NCBI RefSeq assembly: GCF_000018405.1
Contig: NC_009943.1
Location: 3,165,001 to 3,229,000, forward strand
DNA: 64,000 nucleotides
Origin: Desulfosudis oleivorans Hxd3
GTDB lineage: Bacteria; Desulfobacterota; Desulfobacteria; Desulfobacterales; Desulfosudaceae
Direction of reading: 5' to 3'
Shown here: positions 2,442-21,241 of the stretch, piece after piece
Position numbering within the stretch: position 1 is the stretch's first letter
Layout: each line of letters opens with the position of its first letter
Position numbers and translations under genes: made by a program
The notes under the pieces: model-generated
What the model saw: the letters and a program-made list of their open reading frames with translations, nothing else
What the model was told of the DNA's origin: nothing
Databases searched by the model: none

Positions 2442-2861
2442 TCATCTGCCCATGATCTCAAAGGAATTGAAAAAGTAGCCGATCTCAAAAGCCGCCGTAT
2501 CAGGCGCGTCCGACCCGTGCACCACGTTACGCTCGATCTCCGTGGCAAAGTCCCGGCGAATGGTACCCTCGGCTGCGTCCTTGTAGTTGGTGGCGCCCAT
2601 CAGGGTGCGGTAGCGCAAAATGGCGTCCTCGCCTTCCAGCACCATCACCACAACCGGACCCGAGGACATGAAGGTGGTCAGGCTTTCAAAAAAGGGCCGC
2701 TCCCGGTGAACCGCGTAAAACCCCTCGGCCTGGGCCCTGGTCATGTGAATCATCTTCATGGCAATGATTTTCAGGCCCTCTTTCTCCAGCCGCCGGACCA
2801 CTTCACCGATCAGGCCCCGCTCCACGCCGTCGGGCTTGACAATCGATAGTGTTCTTTCCAT
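2442..2861 (-). CDS. ndk: Nucleoside diphosphate kinase
   Basis: 139 residues, the normal size. It transfers the terminal phosphate from ATP to nucleoside diphosphates through a phosphohistidine. The N-terminus [20 protein letters not shown] and the catalytic motif [12 protein letters not shown] (histidine near residue 115) are both intact. A clear ribosome-binding site, AAGGAG, lies six bases before the ATG. It stands alone on the minus strand, downstream of the 3004-7314 gene set and upstream of repeat A1. Confidence 0.97.
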
Positions 2862-3003
2862 GTATGGCTCCTTGTTTGCAACAGGTTTATTGTTAATGGC
2901 TACTGCCAGTTATCAAAAGTTTAAAGGCAAGTCAACCGATATCGCGGGGCGTAGCCGGACTTGAGACCGGGAAAAAAAGCCTTCAGTCGAACGGCATGAA
3001 GAA

Positions 3004-4767
3004 TCACCTGCCGGCCTTGAGCCGTTCGATCCGCATCAGATTTTCCCGGGCGGTCGCATATCCGGGATGAATGGCCAGGGCCTTTTTCAGCATATCACCG
3101 GCAGCTTCATAATCTCCCTTGAGGGTCAACGCTGTTGCCAGGTTGTTGTAAACCATAAAAGCCGAGGGATCGGCGGCCAGGGCGTTCTGGTAGTGCACGA
3201 TGGCTTCGTCGATCCGGCCCGTGTCACACAGGAGATTGCCCAGGCTGTTGCGGGCCGGCACATGATCCGGCTGCAAGTACACGGCTTTTTCAAAATGGCG
3301 CATTGCCGCCTCAGAATTTCCGGCGCTCTCCATGGCCCTTCCCAAATGATAGTGCGCCAGGGCATTGTTTGGGTCAACGGCCAGGGCGGCTTCAAGCTGG
3401 CCGATCGCCTCGGCGTTTCGGCCGTGAAGAAACAGAACCTCTCCATAGTTGGCCCGGGTCTGGCTGCAAGCGGGACGGACCTCGACCGCATGCCTGAAAA
3501 ATGAAAGCGAATCCGCCCAGTGCCGCGTCTGGGCATGGGAAATAACCGTCAGCATCGCCACCACGGCCACGGCTGCCACCGCCCTGATGCACCTGCTCAA
3601 ACCGAGCCGGCGCATCAGGGCGGCACAGCCCCACACAATTCCCAGCACCAGCCCCAGCACCGGCAGATAGGCATAGCGTTGCAGCAGAAAACGATGCTGT
3701 CCCACGCAGACCGGCAAAAAAGGCGCCAGCCCGATCAGAAACCATCCCCAGCCGACGAGAAGATAAGGCGCTTTTTTACGAAAACGAATGACCGCCAGCG
3801 TGACAACAGTGATTATTGTAAACGCTCCCATAATCTGCCACAGGGGTACAAGATACCCCGCCATGGGCGGCACATAAGCGGGAAGCCCGGACGGCACCAG
3901 GGTCTTCCATAAATAGGTGACATAGACCACCGGAATGTTGAGCAGCAGTTCCGGCTGAAAACTTCCCTCTTGCATGGACTGAGCCATCGACGTGGCCTGA
4001 AAAAAAAACCGGCCGAACAGAACCGCCCCGGCCCCAATGGCCGCGATCGGGAGCTTCTCAATGATTAACCACTTCAGGGAAACCAGCGATTTTTCTTCTA
4101 TCTGCCGATCCGCATCAAATGGGATAATCCGTTGCAAAGGCCAATAATCCAGCAGCAGGAGAAAAACGGGAAAAAGAATAATAGCGGGCTTGGACAAAAG
4201 TCCTAAGATAAAAAACAGACAGGCAAGCAGAGACTTCCACCACCGTCCCGTTTTCGTGTAACTTACATAAGCCATGACAGCCAGAATCGTCCAGAAAACA
4301 CTCAAAACGCCTGCCCTGCCGGGAATCCATGCCACAGACTCGGTATGAAGGGGGTGAACGGCCCAGATGGCAGCGGCTGCCACGCTCTTCCAGAAACATC
4401 CGGTCATTTGAAACAACAACACAAAAAAAACGGTTGCCGTAATCCCGTGCAACACCCCACTGGTAAGATGGTATCCTCCGGGATCCATCCGAAAAAGCTC
4501 ATAGTCAGCAAAATACGACGCCATGCTCACCGGAATCCAATACGGAACATGACCCGGCATCTCCGTAAATGCCATGCGTGTGTTATGCCAGAACCTGTCC
4601 GGCTGATGAGCCATATATTCAAAAAGATCGATATCGTCCGCCATAACAAGACCGAAGTGCATGGACTGAAAATATATTGCCCCGCTCAAGAGACATATGA
4701 CCAGCGCGGCAACCGCTACTCTTGTATACAGCAATGCTGATGACTGTTGTCGGGTTGTGTTTAACAT
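3004..4767 (-). CDS. TMTC/PMT-like polytopic membrane protein with C-terminal TPR repeats
   Basis: 587 residues. Residues about 15-430 hold 10 or more hydrophobic segments. Two motifs mark the TMTC/DUF1736-type O-mannosyltransferase-like family: HPLHTESVAWIPGRAGVLS and GLLSKPAIILFPVFLLLLDYWP. An acidic pair (MADDIDLFEYM) sits in the first extracytoplasmic loop, where GT-C glycosyltransferases keep catalytic acids. Residues about 440-587 are four tetratricopeptide repeats (for example ALAHYHLGRAMESAGNSEA). The start ATG overlaps the stop of the upstream methyltransferase by 7 bases, which implies translational coupling. A role in glycosylating surface or secreted proteins is inferred. Confidence 0.8.
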   Translation of the reverse strand: MLNTTRQQSSALLYTRVAVAALVICLLSGAIYFQSMHFGLVMADDIDLFEYMAHQPDRFWHNTRMAFTEMPGHVPYWIPVSMASYFADYELFRMDPGGYHLTSGVLHGITATVFFVLLFQMTGCFWKSVAAAAIWAVHPLHTESVAWIPGRAGVLSVFWTILAVMAYVSYTKTGRWWKSLLACLFFILGLLSKPAIILFPVFLLLLDYWPLQRIIPFDADRQIEEKSLVSLKWLIIEKLPIAAIGAGAVLFGRFFFQATSMAQSMQEGSFQPELLLNIPVVYVTYLWKTLVPSGLPAYVPPMAGYLVPLWQIMGAFTIITVVTLAVIRFRKKAPYLLVGWGWFLIGLAPFLPVCVGQHRFLLQRYAYLPVLGLVLGIVWGCAALMRRLGLSRCIRAVAAVAVVAMLTVISHAQTRHWADSLSFFRHAVEVRPACSQTRANYGEVLFLHGRNAEAIGQLEAALAVDPNNALAHYHLGRAMESAGNSEAAMRHFEKAVYLQPDHVPARNSLGNLLCDTGRIDEAIVHYQNALAADPSAFMVYNNLATALTLKGDYEAAGDMLKKALAIHPGYATARENLMRIERLKAGR

Positions 4768-14753: not shown

Positions 14754-14815
14754 CCCGGATAGTCCATGAAATATCCGTGTTAATGGAGCATGCCCCGGCG
14801 ACCGGACTGAAAATA

Positions 14816-14847
14816 AAAAAGGGGACGGTGCAAACCGTCCCCTTTTT
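14816..14847. terminator. Bidirectional hairpin terminator, also left edge of the accessory island
   Basis: 14-bp arms AAAAAGGGGACGGT and ACCGTCCCCTTTTT around a GCAA loop. It follows the iron-sulfur gene by about 60 bases. The same 32 bases, loop included, recur at 21180-21211 on the other side of the island. Confidence 0.85.
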
Positions 14848-14916: not shown

Positions 14917-15200
14917 CATTGCGAGGAGCGAAGCGACGAAGCAATCTTTACCATTAAACATCGATCTTTCTTAAAGCATTTATCCACGTACTTTTCTTTA
15001 AAAGAAAAGTACCAAAAGAATCGCCCCGTGCAGCTTGGCCACGCCGCAGGCGTGGCTTTCCTCGCTCTAATAATTTTTCGGCGCGGGCAGGAACTCATCC
15101 CGCTTCGCGGGATTCAAACAGCCTGCCCGCTTTTCCCGAAAAATCATTCTCGCTTCGGCTGCGCTGCAATGGGGCATAAAACACCTGCCTGCCCATCTTT
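14917..15200 (+). repeat. Structured repeat R1, copy a
   Basis: About 284 bp, non-coding. It begins with the common palindromic motif CATTGCGAGGAGCGAAGCGA. Visible stems: GTACTTTTCTTT with AAAAGAAAAGTAC (14988-15012); GCCACGCC with GGCGTGGC (15038-15056); ATTTTTCGG with CCGAAAAAT (15073-15081/15136-15144); GCGGGCAGG with CCTGCCCGC (15083-15091/15122-15130); and an inner ATCCCGC/GCGGGAT hairpin (15097-15113). Copies are at 19223-19500 and, inverted, 38585-38800; a fragment is at 17103-17151. It ends about 50 bases before the hipBA operators. Confidence 0.85.
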
Positions 15201-15249
15201 ACAGCATAGGCACCTCTCCGTCATTCCATGAAATACAATCCATATTACC

Positions 15250-18848: not shown

Positions 18849-19047
18849 GCCCATGGGGAAGGTCAAGGTTATTCCCGATTTTCTCCCATCCCCTGAAGAA
18901 CTGGCCCTGAAAGACGAAACCGTAAAAGTTACAATTGCGTTAAGCAAAACCAGTGTCGCTTTTTTTAAAAAAGAGGCCCAAAAGTATAACACGCAATATC
19001 AGAAAATGATTCGCAGGCTTTTGGATGAATATACAGCCCGCCAATAA
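18820..19047 (+). CDS. brnA: BrnA-like antitoxin
   Basis: 75 residues from the ATG at 18820, with GGAAAGGA upstream inside brnT. The C-terminal part KVTIALSKTSVAFFKKEAQK followed by YNTQYQKMIRRLLDEYTARQ is the ribbon-helix-helix DNA-binding domain. The N-terminal part, with DFLPSPEEL, would wrap the toxin. BrnA represses the brnTA promoter. Repeat R2 copy a begins two bases after the stop codon. Confidence 0.88.
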   Translation: MKEKIKYTDEPMGKVKVIPDFLPSPEELALKDETVKVTIALSKTSVAFFKKEAQKYNTQYQKMIRRLLDEYTARQ

Positions 19048-19048
19048 C

Positions 19049-19165
19049 GGGTAACACGGGCAACACGTTGCCCGTGCCCGAAGGGTAAGAGGTTATACTT
19101 TGAAGGGGGGATAAGTGCCTTTTCCTGTGCTACACACACTGGCAGGCAGGCTGCCAGTGTCACCC
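19049..19165 (+). repeat. Structured repeat R2, copy a (117 bp)
   Basis: Bounded by inverted ends GGGTAACACGGGCA and TGCCAGTGTCACCC. Inside are hairpins GGGCAAC-AC-GTTGCCC, CCC-GAA-GGG and CTGGCAG-GCAGG-CTGCCAG. It starts one base after the brnA stop. Copy c at 20073-20189 has the same length; copy b at 19502-19595 is degenerate. Confidence 0.8.
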
Positions 19166-19222
19166 GCAGCAGTATGAATCTCCGCCAGGGAATGACGAAG
19201 CAGTCTTGCTCGCACCGTGCGT

Positions 19223-19500
19223 CATTGCGAGCGCAGCGAAGCAATCTTTACCATTACACATTGATCTTTCTTAAAGCATTTATCCGTGTACTTTTCTTTA
19301 GAAGAAAAGTACCAAAAGAATCGCCCCGTGCAGCTTGGCCACGCCCCGGCGTGGCTTCCCTCGCTCCAATAATTTTTCGGCGCGGGCAGGAACTCGCCCG
19401 CCTGCGGCGGTGCTCAAACAGCCTGCCCGCTTTTCCCGAAAAATCATTCTCGCTTCGGCTGCGCTGCAATGGGGCTAAAACATCTGCCTGCCCATCTTTA
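19223..19500 (+). repeat. Structured repeat R1, copy b
   Basis: About 278 bp, most of it identical to copy a (14917-15200). Differences cluster in hairpin tips and mostly keep pairing: the second stem loop is GCCACGCC-CC-GGCGTGGC, and the inner hairpin is CCGCC-TGC-GGCGG instead of ATCCCGC-TTC-GCGGGAT. Non-coding; R2 copy b follows at once. Confidence 0.85.
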
Positions 19501-19501
19501 C

Positions 19502-19595
19502 GGCAACGGGCAACACGTTGCCCGTGCCCGAAGGGTAAGAGGTTATACTTTGAAGGGAGGATAAGTGCCTTTTCCTGTGCTGCGCACCTGCGCTC
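19502..19595 (+). repeat. Repeat R2, degenerate copy b
   Basis: Shares the core from GGGCAACACGTTGCCCG to GATAAGTGCCTTTTCCTGTG with copy a. The right-hand hairpin is replaced by a different one, GCGCAC...GTGTGC, and the outer ends are eroded. It sits between R1 copy b and the 3' end of the gene at 19612. Confidence 0.65.
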
Positions 19596-19611
19596 CGTGT
19601 GCGTTGCATGG

Positions 19612-20061
19612 TTAAGTCGCAATAATTTTATGTATAATGTGACCTTCTGGTACATACGGCGACAATAATGATTTTAAGCTGATTGGTTCCTTCAGTAGCC
19701 AATTCCCAGGAAGTATACAAAAATGGTTCAGTGTTTTGCCTGACACAATAAAGAAAAGACCCATAGGGGATTTGCGAACAGATACGATATCTTCCCAGCG
19801 TAATCTGCCACAAGGAGTTGGCAGTAAGGTGGGCATAATCCCTTCAACTGAGATATCACATGTACAAGCCATCAATGATATAGCAGCAAAAAACGGGATG
19901 AGTAATACTCCGGATATAGTTAAGAAAGCCAAAATCATTGGGTCAGTAACTGGAATGCCCATTACTGCAACTGCTAAAACGAAGAGCAAGTAACTGGCCC
20001 CGTCTATTACGACCAGTCTTAAAAATCGTGGCTTGATTGTTTTTTTGCCTGATCCATTCAT
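19612..20061 (-). CDS. Small membrane protein of unknown function
   Basis: 149 residues. Two hydrophobic segments lie at about residues 17-38 and 42-66 (LLFVLAVAVMGIPV; ILAFLTISGVLLIPFFAAIS). The soluble C-terminal part has alternating strands (CDISVEGIMPTLLPTPCGRLRWEDI, MGLFFIVSG), compatible with a bacterial PH-like domain, but I do not recognise the family. Base composition is AT-richer than the core. It is flanked by R2 copies on both sides and may be a captured cassette-like gene. Confidence 0.65.
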   Translation of the reverse strand: MNGSGKKTIKPRFLRLVVIDGASYLLFVLAVAVMGIPVTDPMILAFLTISGVLLIPFFAAISLMACTCDISVEGIMPTLLPTPCGRLRWEDIVSVRKSPMGLFFIVSGKTLNHFCILPGNWLLKEPISLKSLLSPYVPEGHIIHKIIAT

Positions 20062-20072
20062 ATCGACTTAAG

Positions 20073-20189
20073 GGGTAACATGGGCAACCCGTTGCCCGTG
20101 CCCGAAGGGCGAGAGGTTATAATTTAAAGGAGGAATAAGTGCCTCCTCCTGTGCTGAACAGACTGGCAGGCAGGCTGCCGGTGTCACCC
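20073..20189 (-). repeat. Structured repeat R2, copy c (117 bp)
   Basis: The same length and inverted ends as copy a (GGGTAACATGGGCA and TGCCGGTGTCACCC). The hairpin near the middle reads GGAGG...CCTCC where copy a has a different arm pair. Its edge supplies the last codon and TGA stop of the gene at 20184-20504. Confidence 0.8.
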
Positions 20190-20504
20190 ACGAACCTGTT
20201 CAATAGATTTAATTGACCAAAGTTTGAATCTGAACAACATTAAAACAGCAGAAATTATAATACTGACTGCCAACCAAACAATCTCGTTTTCTGTTAAGAA
20301 AGATAACAAATAGGCATTAAGAAGAATTACAAAAACATACCCACCACCTTTTTTTATGTAGAAATGGGCAATTGGAAAAAACACAACGCTTAGAACCATA
20401 CCTAACCAAAATCTATTCGGAGCAAACTTTCTGCATAGAAATATTATCAAAATCGGAACGAAAAGCAGGAACAAATTCAAAATTTGATAGATAGTATTTT
20501 GCAT
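20184..20504 (-). CDS. Small polytopic membrane protein of unknown function, cassette-like
   Basis: 106 residues with about four transmembrane stretches (LFLLFVPILIIFLC, FWLGMVLSVVFFPIAHFYI, YVFVILLNAYLLSF, VWLAVSIIISAVLML). I do not recognise the family. The ATG is 8 bases after an attC-like site, a spacing typical of integron cassettes. AT-rich compared with the core genes. Its stop codon lies inside the edge of R2 copy c. Confidence 0.7.
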   Translation of the reverse strand: MQNTIYQILNLFLLFVPILIIFLCRKFAPNRFWLGMVLSVVFFPIAHFYIKKGGGYVFVILLNAYLLSFLTENEIVWLAVSIIISAVLMLFRFKLWSIKSIEQVRG

Positions 20505-20511
20505 GTTAACC

Positions 20512-20574
20512 CTCTAACACTGGAGCTGAAACGTGCGCTGTTTCGGCGCGTCGTTTTCCAGCGATATGTTAGCG
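20512..20574 (-). other. Integron attC-like recombination site
   Basis: 63 bp. On the minus strand it runs from CGCTAAC to GTTAGAG, matching R'' and R' boxes with one imperfect end base each. Pairing continues through CTAACA/TGTTAG, an unpaired spacer (TATC against TCCAG), then GCTGGAAAACG against CGTTTCAGC with one extrahelical base, then GCGC. The stop codon of the upstream gene (20569) lies in the R'' box and the next ATG follows closely. No integron integrase is in the window. Confidence 0.7.
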
Positions 20575-21087
20575 GTGTATTATCATTTTTTTGCCAATGG
20601 CAAAACGGCCATTAATAATCGCCTCTTTAATTGAAAAATATTCCTGCTCATACACCTTGCTAAAAGAGGTAAAAGAATCTTGAGCGATCACTCTCAAAAG
20701 TAAGGTTGATTCTTGTGTATTGCTCCATTCAACTTCCAAATTGGCATCTGTCGAAAATTCAAATGAACAATCCAGTGGATTATTTTTACAATAAGGTTTT
20801 AATATGCAACGATCATTCTTGAGTAGCTTTACATCGTATATTTTTCTTCCTTTTCCGCCTTCAACAACTCTATTCCCTATAATTTGCATTTCTGCTCTGA
20901 TGTTTATGGCAGTGCGACAGCCGCAGTTGACGACTTTCACTGAATAGATATTTTTTCCATCATATTCGCCTTTCGAAATAGTCTTTGAAATAGATAGTTG
21001 GGGACGGAAAAATGAGGCGAAAATCAAAAAGACAATTGAGGCAACTAAACTACCTGCAACTCCTAAAAGAAATGGTTCAATTTCCAT
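20569..21087 (-). CDS. Membrane-anchored protein of unknown function, cassette-like
   Basis: 172 residues from the ATG at 21087, preceded by GGAG; the longer frame upstream is a shadow of the HSP20 gene and terminator. One N-terminal transmembrane segment (LLGVAGSLVASIVFLIFASFF) is followed by a beta-rich soluble domain (YSVKVVNCGCRTAINIRAEM and EVEWSNTQESTLLLRVIAQD). No family recognised. AT-rich. Its TAA stop lies in the attC-like site. Confidence 0.72.
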   Translation of the reverse strand: MEIEPFLLGVAGSLVASIVFLIFASFFRPQLSISKTISKGEYDGKNIYSVKVVNCGCRTAINIRAEMQIIGNRVVEGGKGRKIYDVKLLKNDRCILKPYCKNNPLDCSFEFSTDANLEVEWSNTQESTLLLRVIAQDSFTSFSKVYEQEYFSIKEAIINGRFAIGKKMIIHR

Positions 21088-21178
21088 ATGATTTTTTCTC
21101 CAGCTGACATAGATTATACGGCTGCTGTATTTCCCCCAGTCTTGGCCCATTATCAGGACCGGGGCTGCTGCTGTCAAC

Positions 21179-21212
21179 AAAAAAGGGGACGGTGCAAACC
21201 GTCCCCTTTTTT
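21179..21212. terminator. Bidirectional hairpin terminator, right edge of the accessory island
   Basis: AAAAAAGGGGACGGT, loop GCAA, ACCGTCCCCTTTTTT. The central 32 bases are identical to 14816-14847. It would end transcription from the HSP20 genes on the minus strand. Confidence 0.85.
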
Positions 21213-21241
21213 GTTCTTTTTTCTGTCCGGTGCGGCCGGCA

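Follow-up and report, generated by a model that had tools for sequence, protein, structure and literature searches.

Two genes for predicted membrane proteins lie head to tail on one strand of the Desulfosudis oleivorans Hxd3 chromosome, joined by a short sequence that resembles the attC recombination site of integron cassettes. In functional integrons, the bottom strand of attC folds and is bound by the integrase IntI, which carries out strand exchange at G^TT in the R' box. The question is whether this sequence is an attC and, if so, how cassettes came to lie in a genome where no integron integrase is seen. The window, the whole stretch of DNA that was analysed, spans 64 kb (3165001-3229000) of a closed 3.94 Mb chromosome, and the locus lies entirely on its minus strand. 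Literature searching found no paper that names cassettes of this organism.

The candidate site is 63 nt long (20512-20574, minus strand), its top strand being the minus strand of the window. Read from the sequence, the R'' box is CGCTAAC (20568-20574) and the R' box is GTTAGAG (20512-20518); they are complementary at six of seven pairs and contain the core AAC/GTT, and, by analogy with characterised attC sites, the exchange point is predicted at G20518^T20517 in R'. Compared with the consensus RYYYAAC/GTTRRRY, R'' deviates at positions 1 and 2, and R' at position 7. Similar R'' exceptions (TGCTAAC, GGCTAAC) occur in the intI-linked arrays behind the models described below, and CGCTAAC is also the R'' box of another attC in the same genome. 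Over 50 bp the site shares 81% identity with a chromosomal attC at 1650261-1650312, which terminates a gene of an array at 1.65 Mb. The flanking genes are spaced as an earlier note on this DNA had described: the stop codon of gene 1 (TAA, 20571-20569) falls inside R'', and the ATG of gene 2 (20504) follows R' after a gap of 7 nt. The R' box and the next two bases form GTTAGAGGG, which gives gene 2 a Shine-Dalgarno-like GAGGG. The same note had proposed an L stem with one extrahelical base, and this detail does not survive, as the attC-like fold of the bottom strand (the plus strand of the window) has a single T bulge plus a 2-nt TC bulge, both on the '' arm. In the minimum-energy fold, CTGG pairs with CCAG instead, and a bulge of 4 nt lies on the opposite arm (-15.0 kcal/mol vs -9.1 kcal/mol for the attC-like fold).

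An attC covariance search, which the earlier note had recommended, places the site well above background with independent models. Two models were built from attC sites found beside integron integrases in other Desulfobacterota: R1 from 12 sites and R2 from 57 sites gathered using R1, with sequence from the genome under study in neither. In the phylum sample, 134 of the 395 genomes have an integron integrase above the curated cut-off. R1 scores the site with 28.7 bits (E = 2.5e-4), and it is the sole R1 match in the 64 kb up to an E-value of 10. R2 gives it 26.3 bits with filters off, and drops it with the default speed filters. The background was taken from 20-kb tiles, 60 in all, spaced evenly along the first 2.4 Mb of the chromosome and amounting to 1.2 Mb. 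There, the R2 hits are limited to 39.7, 33.1 and 19.2 bits and those of R1 to 31.1 and 20.7 bits; just two sites exceed 20 bits, and both were already known to be attC-like. Because there is almost no background in 1.2 Mb, scores of 26-29 bits lie above chance level. A search by rule alone, for boxes and a hairpin, gives three matches in the real window, two of which are the window attC read on both strands, vs zero to one per shuffled 64 kb. The strict YYYAAC/GTTRRR rule applied over the window misses the site; a relaxed box rule catches it plus two unrelated places in the window. An Rfam search at the site matched no attC-like family. Judged from its sequence, 20512-20574 is a genuine attC, and because this site joins them, genes 1 and 2 can be read as leftover integron cassettes.

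The integrase that the note had not seen, and wanted sought elsewhere, is absent from the closed genome by a TIGR02249 search: neither an integron integrase gene nor a fragment of one was found, and the matches, all far below the cut-off, are led by XerD, XerC and a short recombinase of the Xer type (219 aa). attC sites are present in number. The genome-wide model search, in which the best 150 of 2500-3600 first-look candidates were scored, missed the window attC, and chosen stretches were therefore scanned directly. With R1 and R2, at least about 20 further attC sites were found in a dozen or so places, either solitary (including 265322, 483076, 812344, 2307019, 2830529, 3283050 and 3295895) or in small arrays (1443299-1445934, 1647166-1650970, 1931877-1933544 and 3147927-3150576). 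Positions 1445860, 1931877 and 3150510 are also among the attC sites of this integrase-free genome. At 20 of the 22 attC sites tested, the window site included, an ORF of 60 codons or more terminates close to the R'' start on the correct strand (from 18 nt inside to 71 nt before it); the same is true of 23% of random positions and, for the opposite strand, of 4 of the 22 sites. Given the roughly 20 other attC sites, integron-derived cassettes are a normal component of this genome.

How the locus should be classified depends on the number of sites. A complete integron is not present: no intI exceeds the TIGR02249 cut-off in the genome, and attI was not seen. CALIN elements consist of at least two neighbouring attC sites without an integrase; such groups occur at other places of the same genome, whereas the 64-kb window holds one attC. 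IntegronFinder 2 requires two attC sites by default, although its authors state that a lone attC can be a true positive (PMC9024848). Like CALIN elements (PMC9024848), the window locus has an attC that follows an ORF, genes spaced as in cassettes, and no integrase; it differs from them, under the two-attC default, in having a single site. It is a solitary attC, CALIN-like but not a formal CALIN. The earlier description as a fragment of a cassette array without an integrase thus holds, but the word cluster does not strictly apply, since only one attC is present locally. The arrays of the same genome (1.443-1.446, 1.647-1.651, 1.932-1.934 and 3.148-3.151 Mb) likewise have attC sites behind ORFs and no integrase, but hold at least two attC sites each. 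The nearest relative of the window attC is the one at 1.6502 Mb; however, the 1.65 Mb array carries a repeat of about 203 bp between its cassettes, which the window lacks. Chromosomal integrons of Desulfobacterota (intI plus array) share the same general attC model, and a homologue of gene 2 has an attC context there (genome G347, below), but those integrons have an intI, whereas this genome has none and attI was not seen.

The ~203-bp repeat is a separate observation. It is ORF-less, its copies are 98-100% identical, and in this genome it occurs only within two integrase-free cassette arrays, with five copies at 1647868-1651974 (loci L011 and L012) and one full and one broken copy at 3146340-3149208 (locus L120). 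It lies between the attC of one gene, whose R' is GTTCGCC in all copies seen, and the start of the next gene, and contains an inverted repeat of 18 bp (AATTGCCGCAGTTGAGCG) as well as an attC-like hairpin with a weak score of 14-16 bits. The attC sites flanking the copies differ from one another. The repeat may represent a cassette without an ORF, or else a small attC-targeting element.

The two genes differ in what can be said of their origin. Gene 1 (20569-21087, minus strand; ATG at 21087; 172 aa) has the arrangement of a cassette gene, its ORF terminating at the R'' box of its own attC in the same orientation. Its product is predicted to have one N-terminal membrane helix followed mostly by strands, in a low-confidence fold. 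It matches no Pfam or NCBIfam family and no defence family, and relatives are absent from 84,980 species genomes (searched for close relatives only), the 395 phylum genomes and 72,556 plasmids. A KirBac-type inward-rectifier K+ channel was considered and rejected, the resemblance being weak (E 0.017) and the fold of low confidence. Upstream lies a predicted sigma-70-like promoter, TTGACA-17-GATAAT (21149-21177, minus strand), recognised solely by its 11/12 match to the consensus; genes 1 and 2 are probably read from it on the minus strand. Gene 2 (20184-20504, minus strand) encodes a predicted four-helix membrane protein of 106 aa. It has three distant homologues among the 395 phylum genomes, and no relatives in viral contigs. 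One homologue, in another genus (G347), lies 35 nt behind an attC, with a further attC one gene upstream; on its other side the same attC recurs with its R'' and L arm damaged. Another (G208) is ~2.4 kb downstream of attC sites that share its orientation; the third (G131) is in a genome with integron arrays, and its own surroundings contain only a 13.8-bit fragment. Of the two proteins, which the earlier note wanted sought in known cassette collections, that of gene 2 has a homologue in a real array and that of gene 1 is an orphan.

At the far end of gene 2, no attC of the second cassette was found: gene 2 runs into copy c of the repeat R2 (R2c, 20069-20189), which yields no model score, and because its own attC is absent, only the start of gene 2 and its homologue mark it as a truncated cassette. 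R2c begins at the last codons of gene 2, supplies its stop codon and, as the earlier note had observed, occupies the place where the second attC is expected. Most simply, R2c would be a later insertion or duplication that removed this site. The gene 2/R2c junction was considered as the second attC itself (ATTGAAC ... GTTCAGC) and rejected, as it has no model score and its inner hairpin is the R2 repeat. The 121-bp form of R2 occurs only at this locus, where 1.2 kb holds three copies, two of them almost complete and one partial; within 19045-20189 the three copies adjoin neighbouring gene ends (the BrnA stop, gene 3 and gene 2). The rest of the genome has just a palindromic core of ~45 bp, found five times. 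Gene 3 (19612-20061, minus strand; 149 aa) lies between R2c and R2b, and may be a third, wrecked cassette. Its stop codon falls within ACTTAAC, which was considered as part of a remnant attC and does not score as one. In the wider surroundings, the same palindrome (AAAAAGGGGACGGTGCAAACCGTCCCCTTTTT) is found at 14812-14847 and 21180-21215; it resembles a terminator or an element of the REP kind, and its two copies bound a variable island with HipBA, an IS, BrnTA and genes 1-3. Direct repeats of ~270 bp (14937-15206 and 19237-19505), roughly 88-95% identical in pieces, flank the HipBA toxin-antitoxin pair, a DDE transposase and the BrnTA pair.

We consider it likely that the locus is the relic of an integron cassette array, consisting of two head-to-tail cassettes (gene 1 - attC - gene 2). 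The attC would then be the scar of a past integrase-mediated insertion, in which its bottom strand would have folded into a hairpin and IntI would have exchanged strands at G^TT in R'. Gene 1 and its attC would thereby have been joined to the TTAGAG that starts the gene 2 cassette. The attC of the second cassette would have been lost where R2c now sits and, without IntI, the gene pair would be fixed in place. We infer that IntI once acted here, the integrase having since been lost or having acted from outside; the gene 1 cassette might still be movable by IntI supplied in trans, and both membrane proteins presumably serve accessory functions. Several observations speak against the relic: there is one local attC, R'' is noncanonical, two bases bulge from the L arm, and a fold other than the attC-like one has the minimum energy. 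In addition, the default filters of R2 drop the site, and no cassette provides a homologue of gene 1.

The alternative that survives best assigns the same attC a different history, in which one or both cassettes were inserted outside any integron platform, through recombination between a cassette attC and a genomic G^TT with the integrase acting in trans. Insertion of this kind, at attG sites, is well established (Loot et al., 2024, cited by PMC12444791). It would account for a genome without integrase in which attC sites are scattered and many are single, and a GTT is found just past the hsp20 terminator, upstream of gene 1. Similarly, several attC sites of this genome have an R' box that does not match R'' (GTTCGCC, GTTCGCA, GTTCTGC), as is expected at a junction with foreign DNA, but the last attC of any array can also carry a mismatched R'. 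At the window site itself, however, R' and R'' match at 6/7 positions, and a second gene then follows in cassette position, as within an array. Nor was an empty site found in relatives, in which the hsp20 pair is kept and the downstream neighbour differs. The R'/R'' match and the adjoining second cassette favour descent from an array, whereas the scattered single attC sites and the mismatched R' boxes elsewhere leave room for direct insertion. That the locus is one of many off-platform, attG-type insertions in an integrase-free chromosome appears doubtful, at perhaps a minority chance; if true, the genome would be a natural record of cassette dispersal, which has so far been shown mainly by experiment in E. 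coli.

That the site is no attC, and an ordinary intergenic hairpin or terminator merely mimics one, is very improbable: on the plus strand the hairpin is followed by GCGTCGTTTT and passes a crude terminator scan, and the minimum-energy fold differs from the attC-like fold, but a plus-strand terminator would serve no identified gene, as both genes run on the other strand, and an ordinary hairpin would be at odds with a site that is the only model match in the window, under models whose chance level is known from 1.2 Mb, and that shares 81% over 50 bp with another gene-ending attC of the genome.

As the relic of a cassette array, the locus makes integron cargo of two small membrane proteins that are otherwise unclassifiable. 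An integrase-free cassette pair is a known kind of arrangement; the genome that carries it is unusually rich in attC sites. An integrase-free genome that keeps about 20 attC sites would be a cassette reservoir that an incoming integrase could mobilise, and such genomes permit array decay to be tested against direct chromosomal insertion as the origin of scattered cassettes.
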